Assembly (NCBI GenBank): GCA_003151235.1
Contig: PLWZ01000087.1
Location: forward strand, 1 to 64,000
Direction of reading: 5' to 3'
DNA length: 64,000 nucleotides
Source: Acidimicrobiaceae bacterium
GTDB taxonomy: Bacteria; Actinomycetota; Acidimicrobiia; Acidimicrobiales; RAAP-2
Under the pieces are notes generated by a model. That model was not told where the DNA came from. It saw nothing but the letters and a program-made list of their open reading frames with translations, and did no database searches. Within the stretch, counting starts at the first letter, position 1; each line of letters begins with the position of its first letter. A program made the translations under genes and the position numbers. Below are positions 1,436 through 48,555 of the stretch, one piece after another.

Positions 1436-3560
1436 ATGGCAGACAGCGAGCCGTACCAAGGTAGGGATTTCCCAGCGTCCTACGTCGGCATCTTGATCGC
1501 GTATCTGCGCAATCGGGCTCCTGCGGGCAAGCTCGATGAAGTGTTGACGACGGCCGGAGAGTCTCGGTCGGTCGAGCAAATCATGGAACCGAGCGCCTGG
1601 ACCTCCTATTTGGAGTTCCGTCGACTCTTGGAGGCGACGGGTCAGGTGCTCGGGCCCGATGCCCTCGAAGCGGCCGCAACCCACTCGATGGATGTACGTG
1701 ACTATCCGGGTGCCGCCGACATGATCTTGTCGTTCGGCTCGCCAGGCGCGGTGCTGGCCGACATAGGCCGACAGAGCTCGACCTTCGCTCCCATCATTGA
1801 AATGGAAACGAGGGAAGCGGGTCCGACGGAGTGGATCGTCACGATGAGGCTCAAAGATGGATTCGAACCCTTCCCGGAGCTCTGCCGGTTCTCGTTGGCC
1901 CTCCTACCGGCGCTGCCGCGGCTCTTCGGTTACCAGTCGACGATCGCGGCGGACGAAAGCTGTCAGTGCGACGGAGCCGACGCTTGCGTGCGGCGGGTTC
2001 GTTGGGAAGCGACCGGCGAGCAAGAACGTTTGACCGACCAAGAGCGCTACCGCTCCCAGATGGCCGAGGCTCGGCTCGAAGGACTGCAAAGCACACTGAG
2101 GGACCTCATCTTCGGGCAGGGGGTCGAGTACCTGCTGCCGCGAATCGTGGCCGCGGCTGCCCGAGCGGTGCAAGCTTCGTCCTACGTGTTGAGCATCGTT
2201 GATCCGACAACGGCCCAACGCCACATGTACTGCGACGGCATTGATCCGCAGGACACGCCGCCGTACATCGAGTTGGCGAATAGTGAAGGGGAACTCGAAC
2301 CGAACGTCCTCGCAGTGAAGGTGGCGTCCGAGAGGCGCGACTATGGCTATTTGGTTGCGATCCGCCCGCGCGATGGATGCTTCTTCCCCCAGGATGTTTC
2401 CAGCCTGGAGGCCTACTCGAAGCTGGCCGCGGTCGCGCTCGATTCGGCGTCTGCCGTCGACGACGCTCGCCGTCAGGCGAGTACCGCAACGGCCCTATTG
2501 AATTTGTCGAATGCCCTCGTGCATTCGAAAGGGATCGGAGATCTCGCCGAGCGGCTAGTGCGAGCGGTGCCGATGGTCATCGATTGCGACCGGGCAATCG
2601 TGACATTGGTCGATCCAACGGGAACAACCGCCCACCCCTTTGCAATGTTCGGCTACGAAACCGAGATCGAAGCGCGACTTCGCGACAGCGATATCGGTAC
2701 CCGAGTTGAGTCAACGAACGGACGACCTCTCCTTTCGAACTCAAAGCAGCGATGGGTACGATCCGACGGCAACCCTCCGGCGAGAGAGTGGGTCGATCCT
2801 CACCGCCAGCTTTCCCATCAGGATGGAAGACGAGTTCTTGGGTTGGATCACGGTGGACGTGACAGAGCGTCCCGAGCGCCTGCGATCTTCCGCAGATCTG
2901 GAGTTGAGGCTCCGGGGTTTGGCGGGCCAGGCAGCAATCGCCATCACCAACGCGCGGCTCGTTGACGAGATCCGCCACCAGGCCCTCCACGATCACCTGA
3001 CCGGGTTGCCCAATCGCGTCCTTGTGCTGGATCGGGCCGAACGGATGCTGGCCAATGCGCACCGTCATTCGACGGATATCGCTCTGATGTTCGTCGACCT
3101 GGACGGGTTCAAGGACGTGAACGACGGCCTCGGCCATCATGTGGGCGACGAAATTCTGCGAGCAGTCGCCACTCGCTTCAGTGCCGTGATCCGGGAGACG
3201 GACACGGTCGGACGGATCGGGGGGGACGAGTTCGTCGTGTTGACGGAGTGTGTGGGGCTCTCGGCGGGGCCCGACATGGTCGCCGAACGGCTGCTCAACG
3301 CCCTCTTCCTCCCCTTTGTACTCGGCGGAGAAGGTATGTCCCCGATCTCGATCTCGGCGAGTATCGGGATTGCAATCGGCAGACGCGAGAGTGCGGAGGA
3401 ACTTCTCGCTGATGCGGACATTGCCCTCTACGCAGCCAAGGCCGCAGGAAAGAGGTGTTCGGCGATATTCGAGCCGAGCATGCGAGAGGCAGTTCAGCGC
3501 CGTCATGAGCTCGCAGCTGGCACCTCGTCGACGGGTCAATCTTCGATCTCGCAAGGATGA
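1436..3560 (+). pseudogene. V4R-GAF-GAF-GGDEF diguanylate cyclase, split by a frameshift
   Basis: Diguanylate cyclases make c-di-GMP from two GTP. The ATG at 1436 opens a frame with an alpha/beta sensor region ending in a C-x-C-x5-C motif (near 1961-1990) typical of V4R-like small-molecule-binding domains. Two GAF-like regions follow (about 2080-2460 and 2490-2940). The second GAF and the GGDEF domain continue in the next frame: the first frame runs open to 2965 and the second is open from at least 2640 to 3560. The switch must lie roughly between 2690 and 2760. The catalytic GGDEF is intact (3219-3233), and an RETD inhibitory I-site lies exactly five residues before it (3192-3203). There is no EAL domain. 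The break may be a true lesion or a one-base sequence error; domain order and catalytic residues look functional if the frame is restored. Confidence 0.8.
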
Positions 3561-40218: not shown

Positions 40219-40259
40219 CGGCCTCTAGTCTTTTTCCTGATCGGAGGCAGCTTCATTGG

Positions 40260-40340
40260 CGCCGACGAAAAGGCAAAACCTTCGTGAGAAGGCGACGCAA
40301 AGCCACGGGACTCTGGGAGTCAGCCGGGCCATCGAATCGG
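40260..40340 (+). promoter_or_regulatory. c-di-GMP-I riboswitch (GEMM-I)
   Basis: The sequence has the GEMM-I core: GGCAAAACC (40272-40280), a hairpin CCTTC-GTGA-GAAGG (40279-40292) capped by a GNRA tetraloop, GACGCAAAGCC (40294-40304) and a second hairpin GACTC-TGG-GAGTC (40309-40321), then AGCCGGGCC (40322-40330). CCGA at 40262 can pair with TCGG at 40337 to close the outer stem. These are the conserved blocks of the RNA that binds cyclic di-GMP. It lies on the plus strand about 100 bases upstream of a pilin-like gene cluster. No strong terminator follows, so control may act on translation or through a structure I cannot resolve by eye. Confidence 0.9.
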
Positions 40341-40407
40341 TCGCACCCCGCAGCCGAGTCGGAGGCTTTCCCAGGTCACAAATTCGGAGAGGAAAAGGGA
40401 AAGTCTG

Positions 40408-40443
40408 ATGGCCAACCAGGACGCCTCGACCGTCACGTCGTGA
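40408..40443 (+). CDS. Eleven-codon leader ORF
   Basis: ATG at 40408 opens an 11-residue frame (MANQDASTVTS) with a strong purine-rich ribosome binding site (GAGAGGAAAAGGGA, 40388-40401). Its TGA overlaps the GTG start of the pilin-like gene by 4 bases (GTGA, 40440-40443). The pilin-like gene has no ribosome binding site of its own, so translation is probably coupled through this leader, between riboswitch and pilin. Alternatively, the ATG is the true pilin start followed by a frameshift. Confidence 0.5.
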   Translation: MANQDASTVTS

Positions 40444-43286
40444 GGACGATCGCCCACGCCCTGACCCGGTTGTGGTCCGCCATCCCCTTGTCCCAGGCGC
40501 GGCGGCGCGACGAAGGCTTCGCGATGCTCGACTGCATCGTCGCGATGGTGGTCCTTCTCGCGGTACTCCTCCCGACCGCGTACCTGTTCACCAATGTGCT
40601 CTCGCAGGCCGCATCGGCACGTCAGAGGCTGACGGCGCTGTCGGTGGCCGAGCAGTGGATCGAGAAGCTCAACACCCAGGGCCCCCCCGCCGACACCAAC
40701 AGCCAGCCCGAGGTGGGGACGGCAATCTCGGAGACGTCGTCGGTGCTCTCGGGAATCACCTACAAGGTGAGCGCCCTGTTCAACTGGACGGACGCCACCG
40801 GCGGGTCGCCCGACTTCTGCAGCACCGACACCTCTCCCGTGCTCGGACTCCAGGTGACCGTCTCGTGGACGGCCAGCCAGAGCTTCACCGATCAGGCCAT
40901 TCTCAACTTCCCGGCGTCGGGCAACCTGACCGACGGCTACCTCGCCATCCAGGTGAACGGCGACCCGGCGTTCAGTCTCGGCCCGCCGACCGTGACGCCG
41001 CCCGCCGACGTCTATGACAACGCGTGGGCTTCGGCTTCGCGGGTCCAGGCGATCCCCGTGCAGGTGTCGGGAACGAACCTCACCACGCCTTATTCCTTGA
41101 ACCCGGACGCCCACGGGTGCACGTTCCTCCAGCTCGCCCCCGGCACGTACTCCGTTCAGGTCGGGCCCGGACCCAACTCGACCTACGTCGCCAACTACAA
41201 CGAGGCGTCCTCGGAAACCCAGGCGCTCTCAAACCAGGCCGCCATCACGGTGAGCGATGCCGAGATCACTCAGGTGGTCTTCCAATACGACGAGGGTGCC
41301 AACATCGGGCTCACCTACCCGAGCTCCACCACGACCGACGACGGGATCTCGTGCCCGGCGACTGCGAGCCTGACCTGCCTGGCCATGGGTCAGTCGCCCA
41401 CGAGCGTGACGTCACCAAACGCCTCGCCCATTGCGACCGGCATCGCAAAGACGAGCTCGGGTTGGTCGGTCGCGTCCTTCCCGACGTCCATGACCCGGAT
41501 CGAACACGTGGCTTGCACAACGAGCGCCTGCATCGCCGTCGGCTACAGCTCGTCGGGAGCGGCCGCGGCGATATCGACCAATGGCACTACGTGGAACACC
41601 ACGACCCTTCCCTCGGGGGTGACGCAGCTGACCGACATCGTCTGTCCAACGAGTGCGACGACCCCCGCATGCATCGCAATCGGCAACAGCGCGTCGGCGG
41701 GCGTCGTCCTGACCGCGACGATCTCGGGGTCGACCGCTACTTGGACGAACGACACGATTCCGGCGACGACCGCGCTCAGCCAGATCGTCTGCCGGAGCGC
41801 GACCGCACAGCCAATCTGCTTCGTTTCCGGGACCACCGCGACCGGGGCCACGATCTTCTCCAACACAGGGTCGTCGGCACCCGGGACCACGTGGACGGCC
41901 TTCACCCAAACCGGCATGACGATGATCACCATCGCGTCGGTGGTGTGCAACAGCACAACCTTCTGCATCGCGATGGGCACCGGCAAGGACCCAACAACGG
42001 TGGTTCCCCTCGTCATCTCTATTACGAGCATCAGTGGCAAGGTGGTCACATGGAAGCCGTTCACGGCGAGCGGCTTCACCATGAGCACCCTCACCTCCAT
42101 CGCCTGCACGTCGTCGGGCTTCTTCTGCTGGGCGGGCGGTACCGGCCAGATCGGATCCGGATCGGTCGGGCCGATCATGATCTACTGCAACGCCACCGCC
42201 GGTTCGTTGTGCTCGTCCGGCAGCGGCGCGACGTTCAAAAACGACACGGTCCCGGCCGGCCTGACGTCGGTGGGCTCGATCACTTGTCCGAGCACCGCGA
42301 TCCCGTGCTTCGCTCTTGATACGACGAGCACGAGCGCAGGCGTGTTGACGCTCGCCAGCGGCACGGCCTGGACCTCGGCGACGCTTCCGAGCGGCGTGGT
42401 GACCCTGACCCAGCTCACCTGTCCCACTACCACCGCGTGCTACGCCGTCGGCACCAACTCCACTTCGGCGATCATCCTGGTACTCAAGGCCGGGACCTGG
42501 AGCGCCGCAACCTTCAGTGGAACGACGGGGGGCAACCCGGTGTCCATCACCGGCCTTGTCTGTACCGCTGCGACCACGTGTGAGGCGGCCGGCGCGACCG
42601 AAACCGCCGCCGCGGTGCTCGACTACAACAACGCGTCCGTCTCCTTCTCTGGTTCGGGGACGCCGACCACCCTCGTCGGGATGTACCTGGACAACCCGCC
42701 GATCATGGTGTCCAACTCCAATCTGCAGCCGCAGACCACGATTGAGATGTCCGCCCCGACCTCCGCGAACGGCCCTCAGACTCAGGTGGGTCCGCTCTTC
42801 CCGTTCCAGAGCGGCTACTCGGTCGCGGCGGGCTACTGCGCATCGGAGCTTACGACGGGGTCGGCATCGGCATCGACGGTCCCCGGAGCGGCCACCGGTA
42901 CGACCCCGGCCGAAGCCTCGGTCATCCTGCCGATGGGGATCCTCCCCATCGAGGCCACGACTTCGACCGGGGCGGTGCTCTCGGGTGCCACCATCACGAT
43001 CGCGGACGCCTCGTGCACGTCGAGCGCAGAGCTGACCCCGCTGAGCAGTGGGTCGTACCCGGCCCTGTCCAACCCACCGACGAACCCGTCCAACCCGACG
43101 AGCTACTCCATGCCGACGACCGGGGTCGACGGTCTCAGCCGGATCGCTGTCATCTACGGCACCTACGTCGTCACCGTCACGTCCGGGGGCACTCACGCGA
43201 CAACGACGGTCACCGTCAACCCGACCTCGATCGTAGTGGGCGGCGCGACGTACTACATGCCCGCCTTCGTGCCGGTCCCGGACTGA
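40440..43286 (+). CDS. Type IV pilin-like protein with large Cys-repeat C-terminal domain
   Basis: The protein is 948 aa. It has a 26-residue basic leader ending in G, then a class III-like methylation site G|FAMLD and a hydrophobic helix (IVAMVVLLAVLLPTAYLF), as in PilV-type minor pilins. The fifth mature residue is Asp instead of the usual Glu. About 41345-42600 encodes roughly ten copies of a C-x(5-9)-C-x-A-x-G type repeat spaced 40-50 residues apart with W/T-rich strands, suggesting a beta-propeller-like adhesin. Two more beta domains follow. The GTG start is coupled to the leader ORF. An apparent GTG at 40284 is part of the riboswitch tetraloop and is not the start. Confidence 0.85.
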   Translation: MRTIAHALTRLWSAIPLSQARRRDEGFAMLDCIVAMVVLLAVLLPTAYLFTNVLSQAASARQRLTALSVAEQWIEKLNTQGPPADTNSQPEVGTAISETSSVLSGITYKVSALFNWTDATGGSPDFCSTDTSPVLGLQVTVSWTASQSFTDQAILNFPASGNLTDGYLAIQVNGDPAFSLGPPTVTPPADVYDNAWASASRVQAIPVQVSGTNLTTPYSLNPDAHGCTFLQLAPGTYSVQVGPGPNSTYVANYNEASSETQALSNQAAITVSDAEITQVVFQYDEGANIGLTYPSSTTTDDGISCPATASLTCLAMGQSPTSVTSPNASPIATGIAKTSSGWSVASFPTSMTRIEHVACTTSACIAVGYSSSGAAAAISTNGTTWNTTTLPSGVTQLTDIVCPTSATTPACIAIGNSASAGVVLTATISGSTATWTNDTIPATTALSQIVCRSATAQPICFVSGTTATGATIFSNTGSSAPGTTWTAFTQTGMTMITIASVVCNSTTFCIAMGTGKDPTTVVPLVISITSISGKVVTWKPFTASGFTMSTLTSIACTSSGFFCWAGGTGQIGSGSVGPIMIYCNATAGSLCSSGSGATFKNDTVPAGLTSVGSITCPSTAIPCFALDTTSTSAGVLTLASGTAWTSATLPSGVVTLTQLTCPTTTACYAVGTNSTSAIILVLKAGTWSAATFSGTTGGNPVSITGLVCTAATTCEAAGATETAAAVLDYNNASVSFSGSGTPTTLVGMYLDNPPIMVSNSNLQPQTTIEMSAPTSANGPQTQVGPLFPFQSGYSVAAGYCASELTTGSASASTVPGAATGTTPAEASVILPMGILPIEATTSTGAVLSGATITIADASCTSSAELTPLSSGSYPALSNPPTNPSNPTSYSMPTTGVDGLSRIAVIYGTYVVTVTSGGTHATTTVTVNPTSIVVGGATYYMPAFVPVPD

Positions 43287-44176
43287 TGAAGGGGTGTCTG
43301 CGTGTACAGGCTCGGCGGAGGGCGTCCCGGGCAGCCGACGAGGCGATCGCAAGGGACGAGGCCGGGGTCACCCTGGTGGAGTTGGCTGTGGCCACGGCAA
43401 CCCTAATGATTCTCTTCGCCATGACGATTCCCATAGTCGACACGCTCTTTTCGACGGTGGCGCGGGTGAATAACACCTATACCAACGTCAATCAGCTCCT
43501 ACCGGTCTCGACCAACCTGCAACGCTTCATGCGTTCGGCCGTCGAACCGGGTCCGACGAACAGCGGCGTCCCCGTTCCAGCCTTCGTCACGGGGGCGATC
43601 CTTCCGACCTCGTTGACCTTCTACACCAACATCGGAGATCCCAACGGGCCGGCACAGATCGTGGCGAGTTGCGCGTCGACCACCCCGAGCACGGGACTTT
43701 GCAACGCTGGGGGGACCTTCACGGTCACCGAGGCGACCGCCAAGAGCGGCACGTGTCCGCCCACCGGGTCCGGCGTGTGCACCTACAACAGCCCCCACAC
43801 GCTCATCACGGTCAACGGTGTATCCAACTTCTCCGATAACGCACCGTTGTTCGTCTACACCCTCCTCCTCAACACATCGACGAGTTCGGGAACCACGTCG
43901 ACGACCTCGCAGGTGGGGACCAGTTGCTCGGGCTCAACCGCGCCGTCGTGCTTCTACTCGAGCGACGTCTCGGCGTTCGCAAGCTGCACGAGCACCGGAA
44001 GTACGACCGGCAACGTGCTGCAGAATTGTCAACCGGCAGAGGTCTATGCGATCACGATCGACCTGCAGGTCAACGGGGTCTCGACCGGGCGCACCGCTGG
44101 TGGCCAATCCGAGGACAACACGACCGTGTACCTGCTCTCCCCGGTCTCTTCCAACTATCAGACAATGGTGGGCTGA
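43286..44176 (+). CDS. Type IV pilin-like protein (PilW-like)
   Basis: The 296-aa protein has a 27-residue leader with basic residues ending in G, then the prepilin site G|VTLVE with the canonical Glu at position 5, and a hydrophobic helix (LAVATATLMILFAMTIPIV). The secreted part is Ser/Thr-rich with at least seven Cys in pairs, and looks like a PilW or minor-pilin head. Its ATG overlaps the preceding stop (TGATG), so it is coupled to the large pilin. The pilus motor and secretin genes are not in this window. Confidence 0.85.
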   Translation: MKGCLRVQARRRASRAADEAIARDEAGVTLVELAVATATLMILFAMTIPIVDTLFSTVARVNNTYTNVNQLLPVSTNLQRFMRSAVEPGPTNSGVPVPAFVTGAILPTSLTFYTNIGDPNGPAQIVASCASTTPSTGLCNAGGTFTVTEATAKSGTCPPTGSGVCTYNSPHTLITVNGVSNFSDNAPLFVYTLLLNTSTSSGTTSTTSQVGTSCSGSTAPSCFYSSDVSAFASCTSTGSTTGNVLQNCQPAEVYAITIDLQVNGVSTGRTAGGQSEDNTTVYLLSPVSSNYQTMVG

Positions 44177-44178
44177 CG

Positions 44179-46233
44179 ATGAGCGGCAGACGTGAGTGGC
44201 GGCCGGTGTACCACCTGGGCGACCGCAAGGCGGTGCGAGCGATGGAGCGGGCCCGCGAAGCGGGCCAGGCCGCCATGGGGATGGTCATCGGGCTGATCCT
44301 GCTGATCTCGCTGACCGCGGGGGCCCTCGCGGCCACTGCGATGCAGCACGATCCGCTGGTCTCCAACGACGTGGTCCAACATCTGGCCTACCGGGCCCTC
44401 CAGTCCGGGATCGACTCCTACCTGTCGGCGGTGAACCAGAATCCCAACCTGGTCAACTGCAACAGCTTGAACACGTCGTCATCGAGCACCGCGTGCCCGT
44501 CCTCTGAGCTTCCTGCCCTCGACACCTGGGAGACGGTCACAGGAAACGGGAACAACCCGATCACCGAGAAGTTCATGTGGACCAACCCATGGTTGTGCTT
44601 CAACACGGCATGCTCAGCCGTTGGGTCGACGGCCGGCCAGACGCTGGAGTACGTGAAGGAGCTCGTCTACGGCGCCGCCCAGAACGGCAAGAGGGTCTCG
44701 TTCCAGAGCTCGTACGTGAACTTCACGCCCGAGAACGGGTTCTTGACCCACATTTTCTGGAGCAACTACGAGTCAACCGTCCCGGCGTCCGGCCAGACCG
44801 CGAACTGCACGTACGACTGGAACGACAATTACGGGGGACCCGACATCAACAACCAAAACAACTTCAACAGCTCCAACTGTGGCGCCGTGTTCTTCGGTCC
44901 GGGGGACACGCTGTACGGGCCCGTGTACTCGAACGACTCCTTCTACGTGGACTCGTCCCCGAACTTCGGCTCCACGGCAGATCCCTCCACCATAACGACG
45001 CACGACCCCAACTGTCTGTTCGTCGATCCATTCGACAATCACGGGACGGCCGCAACATGCTCAGGCGCCAACACCGCCGACGTCGGTACCTACAACTCGG
45101 CAACCAGTTCTGACAATGCCCAGCTGGAGCCCTTGCCTACGACCGACACCGCGCTGGCGGCCATCGCAGCGCAGACGGGCTGCCTGTATTCGGGCCCGAC
45201 AACAATTCAGCTCAGCAATAGCGGAACCACCGAAAACATGACCGTGTACAGCCCAAATACCCCGGTCTCGTCCAACAACGACGGAGATAATGTCTCGACG
45301 AACCCAAATCAGTGCGGCTACAACTCAACGAATGGATCGGTGGTCAACGTCTCGCCAGGGGTGACCGTGGCGGCGCCGGCCAATGGGGTCGTCTACGTCG
45401 AGAACACGCCGTCTTCGCAGACCTGCAACGCGTATGCCAACCCGTATGACGGGGTGAGTGGCACGGGTCTGTACTCGCAGCTCGGCCTCTACTACGGCCA
45501 GACGGCGACCCCGGACTGTGAAGGCGACGCCTTCGTCAGCGGGACCGTGAGCGGAGCGCTCACGATCGCGACCCAGAACGACATCATCGTCGACAACCCC
45601 ATCACCTATGTCGACTGTGGGTCCTCATTCAATAGCCAGTTCGCCAACCAGTGCGCGTACAGCTCATCTGCCGGAATGCCGAACGACGCCCTCGGCCTCA
45701 TCGCCTTTGCCTATGTCGATGTCAACCGCCCCCTCAAAACGGTCAGCGGCACCACGTCCGTGATGGCTTCGTGCGGCGGCACGGGCGCCCTGGCGGCCCC
45801 GCTGTGTGATCCTGGGGCCTCCGGTCTCACGATCGACGCTGCGATTCTCGCCCTGAACGACGGCTTCGGTGTGAACAACTACACGTTCGCCGGGAACGGG
45901 AACAACAGCGGGAACACCGAGGGAACGCTCGACGTCTACGGCTCGATCTCGGAGGACTACCGGCCGGCCGTCGGGACCTTCAGCAACGGTTCCGCGGCTA
46001 CTGGGTACACGAAGTACTACATCTGGGACAGCCGGCTCGGGTACGTGAACGTCCCCGACTACCTGGATCCCGGGACGCCGCGCTGGTCGATCGCGTCGAC
46101 GGCCGTCGCCCAGGGAGTCACGTGCACGACCTCGACCGCATTGCCCGGCTACTGGACCGCCAGCAACAGCTACGGCACCACGCCGCAGTCAACAGCCGAA
46201 CCGAGCTGTGGCAGCGCCACCGGCTACCCGTAG
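44179..46233 (+). CDS. Large secreted protein with PilX-like N terminus
   Basis: The 684-aa protein has a basic N-terminal leader and a hydrophobic segment near residues 33-50 (MGMVIGLILLISLTAGALAA), in the position of a PilX-type pilin helix. No Glu-5 is present (the run after G29 is QAAMG). The rest is Asn/Ser/Thr/Gly-rich, with many Cys and repeated short aromatic motifs, typical of an extracellular beta-rich adhesin. The ATG lies two bases after the previous stop, so the three genes form one operon under the c-di-GMP riboswitch. The precise assembly role is inferred from order and N termini. Confidence 0.8.
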   Translation: MSGRREWRPVYHLGDRKAVRAMERAREAGQAAMGMVIGLILLISLTAGALAATAMQHDPLVSNDVVQHLAYRALQSGIDSYLSAVNQNPNLVNCNSLNTSSSSTACPSSELPALDTWETVTGNGNNPITEKFMWTNPWLCFNTACSAVGSTAGQTLEYVKELVYGAAQNGKRVSFQSSYVNFTPENGFLTHIFWSNYESTVPASGQTANCTYDWNDNYGGPDINNQNNFNSSNCGAVFFGPGDTLYGPVYSNDSFYVDSSPNFGSTADPSTITTHDPNCLFVDPFDNHGTAATCSGANTADVGTYNSATSSDNAQLEPLPTTDTALAAIAAQTGCLYSGPTTIQLSNSGTTENMTVYSPNTPVSSNNDGDNVSTNPNQCGYNSTNGSVVNVSPGVTVAAPANGVVYVENTPSSQTCNAYANPYDGVSGTGLYSQLGLYYGQTATPDCEGDAFVSGTVSGALTIATQNDIIVDNPITYVDCGSSFNSQFANQCAYSSSAGMPNDALGLIAFAYVDVNRPLKTVSGTTSVMASCGGTGALAAPLCDPGASGLTIDAAILALNDGFGVNNYTFAGNGNNSGNTEGTLDVYGSISEDYRPAVGTFSNGSAATGYTKYYIWDSRLGYVNVPDYLDPGTPRWSIASTAVAQGVTCTTSTALPGYWTASNSYGTTPQSTAEPSCGSATGYP

Positions 46234-46242
46234 ATCGAGGGA

Positions 46243-48213
46243 TTAGCTCTGTAGAGCGTCGACCGCCGGGACCCCGGGCTCGCCGGCGGGTCGGGCGGCC
46301 TGGATGACGTCTGTGATCTCGCTGCCGACGAGTTCGTCGCGGTCGAGCAGCGCGTCGCGCAGCGCCTCGACCACATGGCGGTTGTGCTCGAGCATCGAGC
46401 GAGCGTCGTCCTTCGAACGGGTGAGCAGGCGTTCCACCTCGTCACGTCCGGCGTCGGTCGACAGGACCTTGGCCGTGGCATCGGATGGACCGGTCAAGCT
46501 CATGGAGGTGTCGGCGATCAACGACGAGCCCATGCCGAGCACCCCGACCATTTGGCATGCCGTAGTCGTGGCCGTCGCCAGGTCGCCGGCGACGCCCGTG
46601 GACGTCTCCCCGAAGAACAACTCCTCGGCGGCCATTCCCCCCATGGCGATCTGGATCAGCGCCCGCATCTCGCTCTTGGTCCGGGTGAACCGCTCCTCTG
46701 CGTCCGAGTGGGCGAGCAGGCCGAGCGCCTCCTTGCGCTTCACGATGCTCAGCAGGTCGAGTGTCCGTCCGCGGCCGACCAACCAGGCCACCGTGGCGTG
46801 GCCGGACTCGTGTGTGGCGATCATTCGCCGCTCGGCCTCGGTGTAGAGGGCCCCGTTGGCGAGTCCGATCTCGTTGGTCATCTTGGCCCGGGTGATGTCG
46901 GCCCATGACATGGCGTGCGCGTCGCGGCGTAGTGCCCAGATCAGTGCCTCGTCCAAGAGGTGCTCGATCATCACCGGCGAGTAGCCCGCCGTCATGCCGG
47001 CGAGCGCCTCGCGCCGTCCGTCGTCGTCGAGCTCCGTCGTGTGTGCCTTTTTGCCGAGATAGAAGTCGATGATGTCTCGCCGTCCGGCTCTGGTCGGCAG
47101 GTCGAAGTAGATCGACCGGTCGAAGCGGCCAGGGCGCAAAAGTGCCGCGTCGAGGTCGGCGGCCCGGTTGGTGGCTCCGATCACGAGCATGTTGGCCGGC
47201 ACCGAGCCCGGTTTGTGCAAGTGACGCTTCGTGGGCAGCCACTGATTGATGAAGTCAACCATCAAGCCGCGCAGCTTGGTGCTACCGGTCGGAGTCTCGA
47301 AGGACTGCAGTTGGATCAAGAGCTCGTTGACGACGCCCGCGACCCCTTCGCGGTGGCCGCCGAGGCCGGACCCCGAGCGCGATGCGCCGATGGCGTCGAT
47401 CTCCTCGATGAAGCCGATCGCCCCACCCTCGCGGCGGGCGTGACGGCGCAATGCCTTGAAGTAGGAGCGGATCTTTCGGTTCGTCGCCCCGTAGTACATC
47501 GACTGGAACGCGGAAGAGGATACGAACAGGAACGGCACGCCGGCCTCGGCGGCGAGCGCCTTGGCCAGGTAGGTCTTTCCGGTGCCGGGCGGACCCTCGA
47601 ACAGGACGGCCCGGCGGGGTGTGCCCCCCATGCGCTCGGCGAATATGCGGTGCGCGAGAAACAGGTTGAGGGTCTTGCGAACCTCTTCGACAACGGCGTC
47701 TGCGCCCCGGACGTCGTCGAAGTGGACGTCGATCTCACCGGGCCGGTACAGCACGTGGGGAGACCGAGCCGCTCCGACCACCGACGCCAGCATCATGCCA
47801 ACGAGGACCGCGATAAGGGCGATCGCGGGGATATAGGGAACGAGCGAACTCGGGATGTGCGGGATCGAGAACGCCTGGTGGTGCCACACGAGCGCCCGCA
47901 GCAGTAGGGCAACGGCGACGGGCAGGAGCACGATCGCCAGGCGGGCGAATCGCCGCTGTCGGACCCGTTCCCGGGTCCGCCCGACATCGGCCCCGTCGGG
48001 GATCACGCCAGTGTCGGAAAGTGTGTCGAGGCCGGGATCGGGCACCGATGTTCCACTCGAGTCGCCGTCGATCGGCGTGCCAAGGCACGGCGGTGAGGCG
48101 ATCGCGGAGCGGAGAGGGTCGCTGTCCGCCCATCCCTGGTGGGTGGGTTGGTCCGCCGGGCTCAACACACGTCCTCTCGGTTCGACATTCCGAAAGGGCG
48201 TCGGTTTCGCCAC
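46243..48213 (-). CDS. FtsH-like ATP-dependent zinc metalloprotease
   Basis: The product is about 656 aa with two membrane segments (around residues 92-110 and 127-148) and an AAA domain with Walker A GPPGTGKT (207-214). In FtsH the Walker B reads FIDEID; here it is GFIEEIDAIG, with the first Asp replaced by Glu. A peptidase domain follows with the zinc-binding HESGH and the third ligand in AGDLATAT. Arg finger RPGRFDR is present. It would degrade membrane or misfolded proteins. The start is uncertain (GTG 48213 chosen; TTG 48276 possible). It is convergent with the pilin operon, ending 9 bases from it, and is probably a paralogue of the housekeeping ftsH. Confidence 0.85.
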   Translation of the reverse strand: MAKPTPFRNVEPRGRVLSPADQPTHQGWADSDPLRSAIASPPCLGTPIDGDSSGTSVPDPGLDTLSDTGVIPDGADVGRTRERVRQRRFARLAIVLLPVAVALLLRALVWHHQAFSIPHIPSSLVPYIPAIALIAVLVGMMLASVVGAARSPHVLYRPGEIDVHFDDVRGADAVVEEVRKTLNLFLAHRIFAERMGGTPRRAVLFEGPPGTGKTYLAKALAAEAGVPFLFVSSSAFQSMYYGATNRKIRSYFKALRRHARREGGAIGFIEEIDAIGASRSGSGLGGHREGVAGVVNELLIQLQSFETPTGSTKLRGLMVDFINQWLPTKRHLHKPGSVPANMLVIGATNRAADLDAALLRPGRFDRSIYFDLPTRAGRRDIIDFYLGKKAHTTELDDDGRREALAGMTAGYSPVMIEHLLDEALIWALRRDAHAMSWADITRAKMTNEIGLANGALYTEAERRMIATHESGHATVAWLVGRGRTLDLLSIVKRKEALGLLAHSDAEERFTRTKSEMRALIQIAMGGMAAEELFFGETSTGVAGDLATATTTACQMVGVLGMGSSLIADTSMSLTGPSDATAKVLSTDAGRDEVERLLTRSKDDARSMLEHNRHVVEALRDALLDRDELVGSEITDVIQAARPAGEPGVPAVDALQS

Positions 48214-48555
48214 TCGCTCCCCGTCAGCCAGGCGACCATCTTTGCCTGACGGATCAATGCTCCGCCCTGGTGTCAACGGCTTCCGTAGGCACCGTCGACA
48301 GTGTGCACTGCACTACGTCTCACAAGCGTCCCACAAGTACCGCCACCTGGGAAATGTTTTTTCGAAAAGTTGCCGTCCCACCGACGCTCGGCGACGGCGG
48401 CCGAAGGTGTCGTTGCGCCTGAGCGTCGTTCATGGTGGGCTGCACCGGTGCCTCGTCCGAACACGACGCTGTCCGCTCCGAGCGGGCCGGGTCGCCGCCT
48501 GCGGAGAGCGGCTGTCGCTGCGCTTCCCGAGCCAGCGGTGCGTCGCATTCGGGCG
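48214..48555. other. Divergent intergenic region
   Basis: This gap of about 342 bases lies between the FtsH-like gene (minus) and the methyltransferase gene (plus). The methyltransferase frame is open upstream to 48301, but that part is Arg/Pro-rich and unlike the rest of the protein. A short A/T-rich patch (about 48350-48370) may be a promoter. Nothing else is evident. Confidence 0.35.

Follow-up and report, generated by a model that had tools for sequence, protein, structure and literature searches.

How could a GEMM-I riboswitch control a cluster of pilin-like genes from which an 11-codon open reading frame separates it? The question is raised by a stretch of 64,000 nucleotides from an Acidimicrobiaceae bacterium, analysed here as a whole and called the window. 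The features of the locus are the following:

40259-40344, forward strand: GEMM-I (c-di-GMP-I) aptamer including the flanking P1 stem; RF01051 match, P1 as read in the sequence and by ortholog pairing energies
40312-40319, forward strand: apical P3 segment (anti-sequestor strand), which can pair with the 5' arm of hairpin S; predicted to replace P3 in 7/7 orthologs
40327-40333, forward strand: 3' segment of the aptamer, GGCCAUC, a complement of GAUGGCC at the leader start (40407-40413); seven contiguous pairs in 6/7 orthologs
40332, forward strand: equivalent of the ligand contact C92 of Vc2, with U replacing C; alignment to RF01051 and RF03167
40363-40372, forward strand: 5' arm of hairpin S (AGGCUUUCCC); covariation
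40397-40406, forward strand: 3' arm of hairpin S (GGGAAAGUCU), over the ribosome-binding region of the leader; pairing and covariation
40408-40443, forward strand: leader ORF of 11 codons, MANQDASTVTS*; ATG, length, frame and overlapping stop kept in seven orthologs, anti-SD pairing
40440-43286, forward strand: PilV-like pilin gene 1 (948 aa), with a GTG start inside the leader stop; prepilin-type N-terminus DEGFAMLDCIVAMVVLL, recognized by eye; TIGR02523 (PilV) below the cut-off (E = 0.0028)
43286-44176, forward strand: pilin-like gene 2, overlapping gene 1 (TGATG); PF07963 (N_methyl) below the cut-off (E = 0.005)
44179-46233, forward strand: gene 3, with a hydrophobic N-terminus; no family match in the profile search, 69-88% identity in six orthologs
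46243-48276, reverse strand: ORF of an FtsH-like AAA/M41 protease, its true start downstream of the riboswitch; PF01434 (1.7e-32) and PF00004 (7e-31)
48190-48273, reverse strand: c-di-GMP-II(-GAG) riboswitch before the FtsH-like gene; RF03169, 54.9 bits with a cut-off of 40

The GEMM-I core had been read from the letters of the sequence in a preliminary description, and the covariance-model check proposed there bears it out: in a cmscan of the whole window, RF01051 matches positions 40262-40336 (+) at E = 1e-8, its 57.8 bits exceeding the gathering score of 35. Two RNA families come above threshold in the window, c-di-GMP-I and c-di-GMP-II-GAG. Within the match lie P2 with its GNRA loop (CCUUC-GUGA-GAAGG), the GACGCAAAGCC block and the second hairpin; the alignment also gives the GC pairs 21-46 and 22-45 as well as P3. 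Pairing energies are in agreement with the flanking P1, whose strands 40259-40265 (GCGCCGA) and 40337-40344 (UCGGUCGC) can pair with one bulge. Membership in c-di-GMP-I-GGC (RF03167), a family of the same clan, was rejected: the score of 48.9 bits is below the cut-off of 59, and the signature G at position 47 is an A in this aptamer.

For the ligand contacts (20, 47 and 92), we use the Vc2 numbering, cross-checked against the RF03167 structure line. G20 (40272) and A47 (40299) are present in the alignment. The canonical contact C92, which the Rfam model does not require, is absent, and because of this the window aptamer is classed, on its sequence, as a GEMM-I variant and not as a canonical c-di-GMP aptamer. 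Among 115 GEMM-I RNAs of the order, position 92 is C in 109 and U in six, all six being pilin-locus aptamers (the window, L033, L020, L021, L023 and L039). A seventh pilin-locus RNA (L016) has C92, and so do all 108 non-pilin GEMM-I RNAs surveyed in the order. U92 is nevertheless not exclusive to the pilin locus: among 396 genomes of the phylum, one further case was found in a distant genome (L165, 1466-1542), before a secreted, apparently protease-like ORF. This different gene has no leader, and U92 is therefore not linked to the leader in general.

Structures of Vc2 carrying C92U have been solved (3MUR, 3UD3, 3UD4; PMC10671752), and this mutant has been reported to bind 3',3'-cGAMP (PMC12032345). 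The double mutant G20A/C92U binds c-di-AMP, and its KD for c-di-GMP is 4900 nM vs. 0.011 nM for the wild type (PMC9049102, PMC7288161). U92 calls the predicted affinity and specificity for c-di-GMP into question, and the affinity is probably lower than with C92. That the pilin aptamers are natural G20/A47/U92 GEMM-I RNAs in which U92 either shifts the ligand or was selected for pairing with the start codon of the leader seems rather unlikely; the first option is considered because of the cGAMP binding reported for the engineered C92U. Under the second, a single nucleotide would both touch the ligand and block initiation at the leader. Natural U92 aptamers also allow the evolution of GEMM-I ligand specificity to be tested on natural RNAs.

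The cGAMP specificity of GEMM-Ib comes from an A at position 20, and the GGDEF enzymes that make cGAMP (Hypr) carry an Asp-to-Ser change. All eight strong GGDEF domains of the genome keep GxxxGD, the Asp of which we take, following work on PleD and Hypr, to be the guanine-reading residue. cGAMP as the main ligand has become less probable: none of the eight clear domains has the Asp-to-Ser change, and no match to PF18134 proteins was found in the genome, which is 93% complete. These c-di-GMP-type GGDEF domains, the missing PF18134 match and the adjacent c-di-GMP-II riboswitch together favour c-di-GMP as the likeliest ligand of the pilin aptamer. One GGDEF domain, with an intact GGDEF motif and GHHVGD, is encoded in the window itself (2982-3455, +).

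Downstream of the aptamer, hairpin S consists of 10 bp and ends one nucleotide short of the leader AUG. In six distinct sequences, 96.7% of the cells are paired and both sides have changed in three of the ten pairs; the covariation score was matched by 0/500 shuffles, and a shift of one arm by a single column lowers the pairing to 67-68%. The arms pair better with their own partner (-15.6 kcal/mol) than across clades (-12.6 kcal/mol), and S alone reaches -14.7 to -20.2 kcal/mol across the orthologs. This suggests that S sequesters the initiation region of the leader. No U-run follows S in the sequence, so that its role as an intrinsic terminator was rejected; the lack of a visible terminator argues that control by the riboswitch is most likely translational. 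Another candidate, the anti-P1 hairpin T, was rejected as well, its own pairing being no better than pairing across clades. Hairpin S, U92 and the other c-di-GMP riboswitch of the window (48190-48273, -) go beyond the preliminary description.

The leader had been described as an 11-codon ORF with the only good initiation site before the pilin gene and with a stop overlapping the pilin GTG, and both points hold. Its upstream region is predicted to pair with the anti-SD at -5.5 kcal/mol in the window, and pairing-energy prediction found no such pairing for the pilin GTG (40440-40442), which shares GTGA with the leader stop. Across the seven orthologs, the leader energy is -5.5 to -7.4 kcal/mol and that of the pilin start 0 to -3.8 kcal/mol, the median of random sites in the window being -2.7. 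The geometry is strict: in 7/7 loci, the leader has 11-12 codons and the distance from its AUG to the pilin start is exactly 32 nt. Stop and start overlap by 4 nt (GTGA/ATGA) or 7 nt (GTGYTGA), and L040 has an ATG as pilin start in the same place as the GTG elsewhere. The leader AUG sits in an invariant stretch of 9 nt (CUGAUGGCC, 7/7 loci), the surrounding region having 28 invariant columns out of 73. A pilin start farther upstream was rejected: in L035, in-frame starts are absent between -123 and 0.

The encoded peptides are MANQDASTVTS, MANQDASTVAS, MANGCGPVGWSC (twice), MANGCGPIVGSC, MAFECGRPDTR and MAYECGRADTR. Their amino acids differ between clades, and the features kept are therefore the existence of the ORF, its length and its coupling; codon substitution gives no sign of selection on translation itself. 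A leader that depends on its peptide sequence, by stalling for example, is not favoured, as the residues vary. With the geometry kept but not the peptide, the leader probably exerts its effect through its own translation, by termination-reinitiation. Lacking a separate ribosome-binding site and beginning within the leader stop, the pilin gene is presumably coupled to the leader.

A search for the pilin N-terminus in 172 genomes of the family found it in 36, and GEMM-I lies directly upstream of the pilin in seven loci: L034 (the window), L035, L036, L037, L038 and L040, all from one genus, and L039 from another. Aptamer scores across these loci are 52.6-60.1 bits. Recurring in seven species, the arrangement appears to exceed chance, even if the seven loci fall in four clades only and the counts are therefore not independent. 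No Rfam match was found in 14 other scanned pilin orthologs (L041-L054). Pilin orthologs from other genera lack the riboswitch and the leader, and in several from a single genus a direct SD precedes the GTG. The relatives are mostly metagenome-assembled Acidimicrobiaceae (uncultured soil actinobacteria), one of them from palsa soil. In another family of the order, a GEMM-I aptamer (L027, 1501-1593) precedes a classic PilA-type pilin (GFTLIELMVVVLIIAIL), which has a direct SD and no leader ORF.

Taken together, the mechanism that we consider fairly probable as a whole (GEMM-I riboswitch, S, coupled leader and pilin cluster) is indirect control of the translation of the three pilin-like genes. 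Hairpin S, a strong one, would bury the ribosome-binding region of the leader, and its 5' arm could alternatively pair with the apical P3, linking aptamer and S. With the ligand holding the aptamer, S would form and the leader would not be translated; without ligand, the aptamer strand would catch the 5' arm of S and the leader would be translated. The pilin would then be made by reinitiating ribosomes that have read the leader. Comparison of the loci supports the predicted aptamer, S, the leader geometry and the absence of a pilin SD; we infer the ligand identity, the coupling and the switching direction. The preliminary description had c-di-GMP gate translation through coupling with the leader: the coupled geometry is indeed kept in the seven orthologs, which strongly supports a translated, coupled leader. 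For c-di-GMP as the ligand, the support is weakened by U at the C92 contact, and gating may follow either an ON or an OFF model.

For the direction, we lean towards OFF. In ligand-free folds of transcripts that end before the 3' arm of S, the apical P3 pairs with the 5' arm and its flank (CUUUCCCAG), and P3 is displaced in 7/7 orthologs (probability 0.86-1.0). Shuffled linkers displace it in 20-80% of cases, and unrelated GEMM-I loci in ~31%; the support for this predicted link between aptamer and S is therefore modest, and no covariation was found in the P3/5' arm pairing among the seven orthologs. In 5/7 orthologs, aptamer formation nearly always makes the leader initiation region costlier to open. 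Against OFF, the effect of the aptamer in the window and its nearest relative, L035, is near neutral and slightly in favour of translation (-0.3 to -2.2 kcal/mol), and full-length folds of both RNAs retain S in both states. The reverse direction, which is possible but doubtful, would have the ligand-free 3' segment GGCC(A/G)UC pair with the leader start GAUGGCC, stacked on S and hiding the AUG. On ligand binding, the segment and with it position 92 would be drawn into the aptamer, leaving the AUG free, so that c-di-GMP would raise pilin production. The 7-bp complementarity (~-14 kcal/mol, 6/7 orthologs) was equalled in strength by 0/300 shuffles, U92 completes it, the flanks of the AUG are invariant, and where no ligand is present, the pairing dominates the predicted folds of L035 and of the window RNA (0.96 at 20 nt beyond the AUG). 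However, the predicted ligand-free ensembles of the remaining five orthologs do not show it, and it is conserved without covariation; L037, with C92 and a broken helix, still keeps its leader, and even next to a formed aptamer the ribosome-binding region would stay covered by S (-15 to -20 kcal/mol).

Two further explanations were weighed. Mainly transcriptional control, for example by Rho-dependent termination on an untranslated leader whose translation keeps ribosomes on the RNA, has a parallel in the B12 and Mbox riboswitches of Mycobacterium tuberculosis, which join translational platforms to (Rho-dependent) premature termination (PMC11260477, PMC12810186). It is improbable here: S without a U-run makes an intrinsic terminator unlikely, the sequence holds nothing that points directly to Rho, and such control would add to the role of the leader and not replace it. 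Still less probable is an independent pilin start at the GTG or at a downstream in-frame TTG, with the leader ORF as a by-product of constraints on RNA structure. The leader peptide is not conserved, RNA pairing alone could preserve CUGAUGGCC, and the leader of five orthologs (L036-L040) contains an additional in-frame GTG. Yet the pilin start has no SD, the only nearby in-frame start in L034 and L035 is the GTG within the leader stop, and the stop overlap is kept in two forms (GTGA and GTGYTGA), including the ATG of L040.

The closest precedent for control through the coupled leader is the B12 riboswitch of M. tuberculosis ppe2 with its uORF uPPE2, which acts through this coupled uORF with an AUGA overlap, as shown experimentally (Kipkorir et al. 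2024, PMC11260477). In this OFF design, the anti-SD strand is either set free or captured by a purine-rich strand that overlaps the aptamer (PMC11260477). Both systems are actinobacterial, and both have a short uORF with a stop overlapping the main start; its initiation region is controlled by the riboswitch in ppe2 and probably so in the pilin locus. The pilin locus likewise has a uORF with an SD and a main gene without one; dependence of the latter on termination-reinitiation has been shown for ppe2 and is presumed here. The three-strand logic is also alike, with an anti-SD strand common to the sequestering hairpin and to the strand overlapping the aptamer. The aptamers differ (B12 vs. GEMM-I), the ppe2 uORF is longer and the target genes are unrelated. 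At M. tuberculosis Mbox/pe20, a small upstream ORF, itself conserved, is under direct riboswitch control through a translational platform; unlike the pilin locus, it senses Mg2+, the uORF peptide is conserved and Rho-dependent termination has been shown (PMC12810186).

The same aptamer family also occurs before type IV pilus genes in Geobacter: cGAMP-type (GEMM-Ib) RNAs precede pilus assembly genes in most species (PMC6456294), and the pilM RNA of G. metallireducens is a GEMM-I riboswitch before a pilus gene (PMC9262584). In contrast to the window aptamer with its G20/U92, these RNAs are specific for cGAMP, and the parts of the two reports considered here describe no leader ORF. In a limited literature search, no paper came up that describes a c-di-GMP-class riboswitch working via a translationally coupled mini-ORF. 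The principle of a riboswitch with a coupled uORF is thus known; its combination with GEMM-I, and with an unusual aptamer, is new. If true, the riboswitch-uORF-coupling design of the M. tuberculosis B12 riboswitch would be a more general actinobacterial solution.

The target genes had been called three coupled type IV pilin-like genes. The three-gene cluster is in place, and the term pilin-like refers solely to prepilin-type N-termini and to the sub-threshold profile matches of genes 1 and 2, gene 3 being unmatched. Some orthologs carry GFTLIE at the prepilin-type N-terminus, and the genome encodes the pilus inner-membrane protein T2SSF (PF00482). The order ubiE-like gene, riboswitch, pilin genes 1-2-3 and convergent FtsH-like gene is found in 6/6 orthologs examined, one of them on a contig that breaks off within FtsH, and the c-di-GMP-II match before FtsH is kept in the five orthologs that reach this gene (L167-L171). 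Two classes of c-di-GMP riboswitch thereby bracket the convergent pilin and FtsH-like transcription units, a compact natural case in which to ask how two c-di-GMP sensors of different class act on neighbouring genes. An 8-codon ORF, MSNREDVC* (48162-48188, -), lies between the c-di-GMP-II riboswitch and FtsH and resembles, in the window, a coupled leader. It is absent from the FtsH-locus orthologs examined and, in contrast to the conserved leader, appears to be a chance ORF.

The genome as a whole, 3.57 Mb in 93 contigs, has three matches to GEMM-I and two to c-di-GMP-II-GAG. The other two GEMM-I RNAs (among L001, L002 and L005) precede genes for secreted-looking proteins, and the second c-di-GMP-II-GAG (among the same three) is near a response-regulator-like ORF. 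Elsewhere, one contig (L110, in G043) carries three GEMM-I aptamers on one strand (1037-1128, 1883-1974 and 2695-2786, -), regularly spaced by ~0.8 kb.
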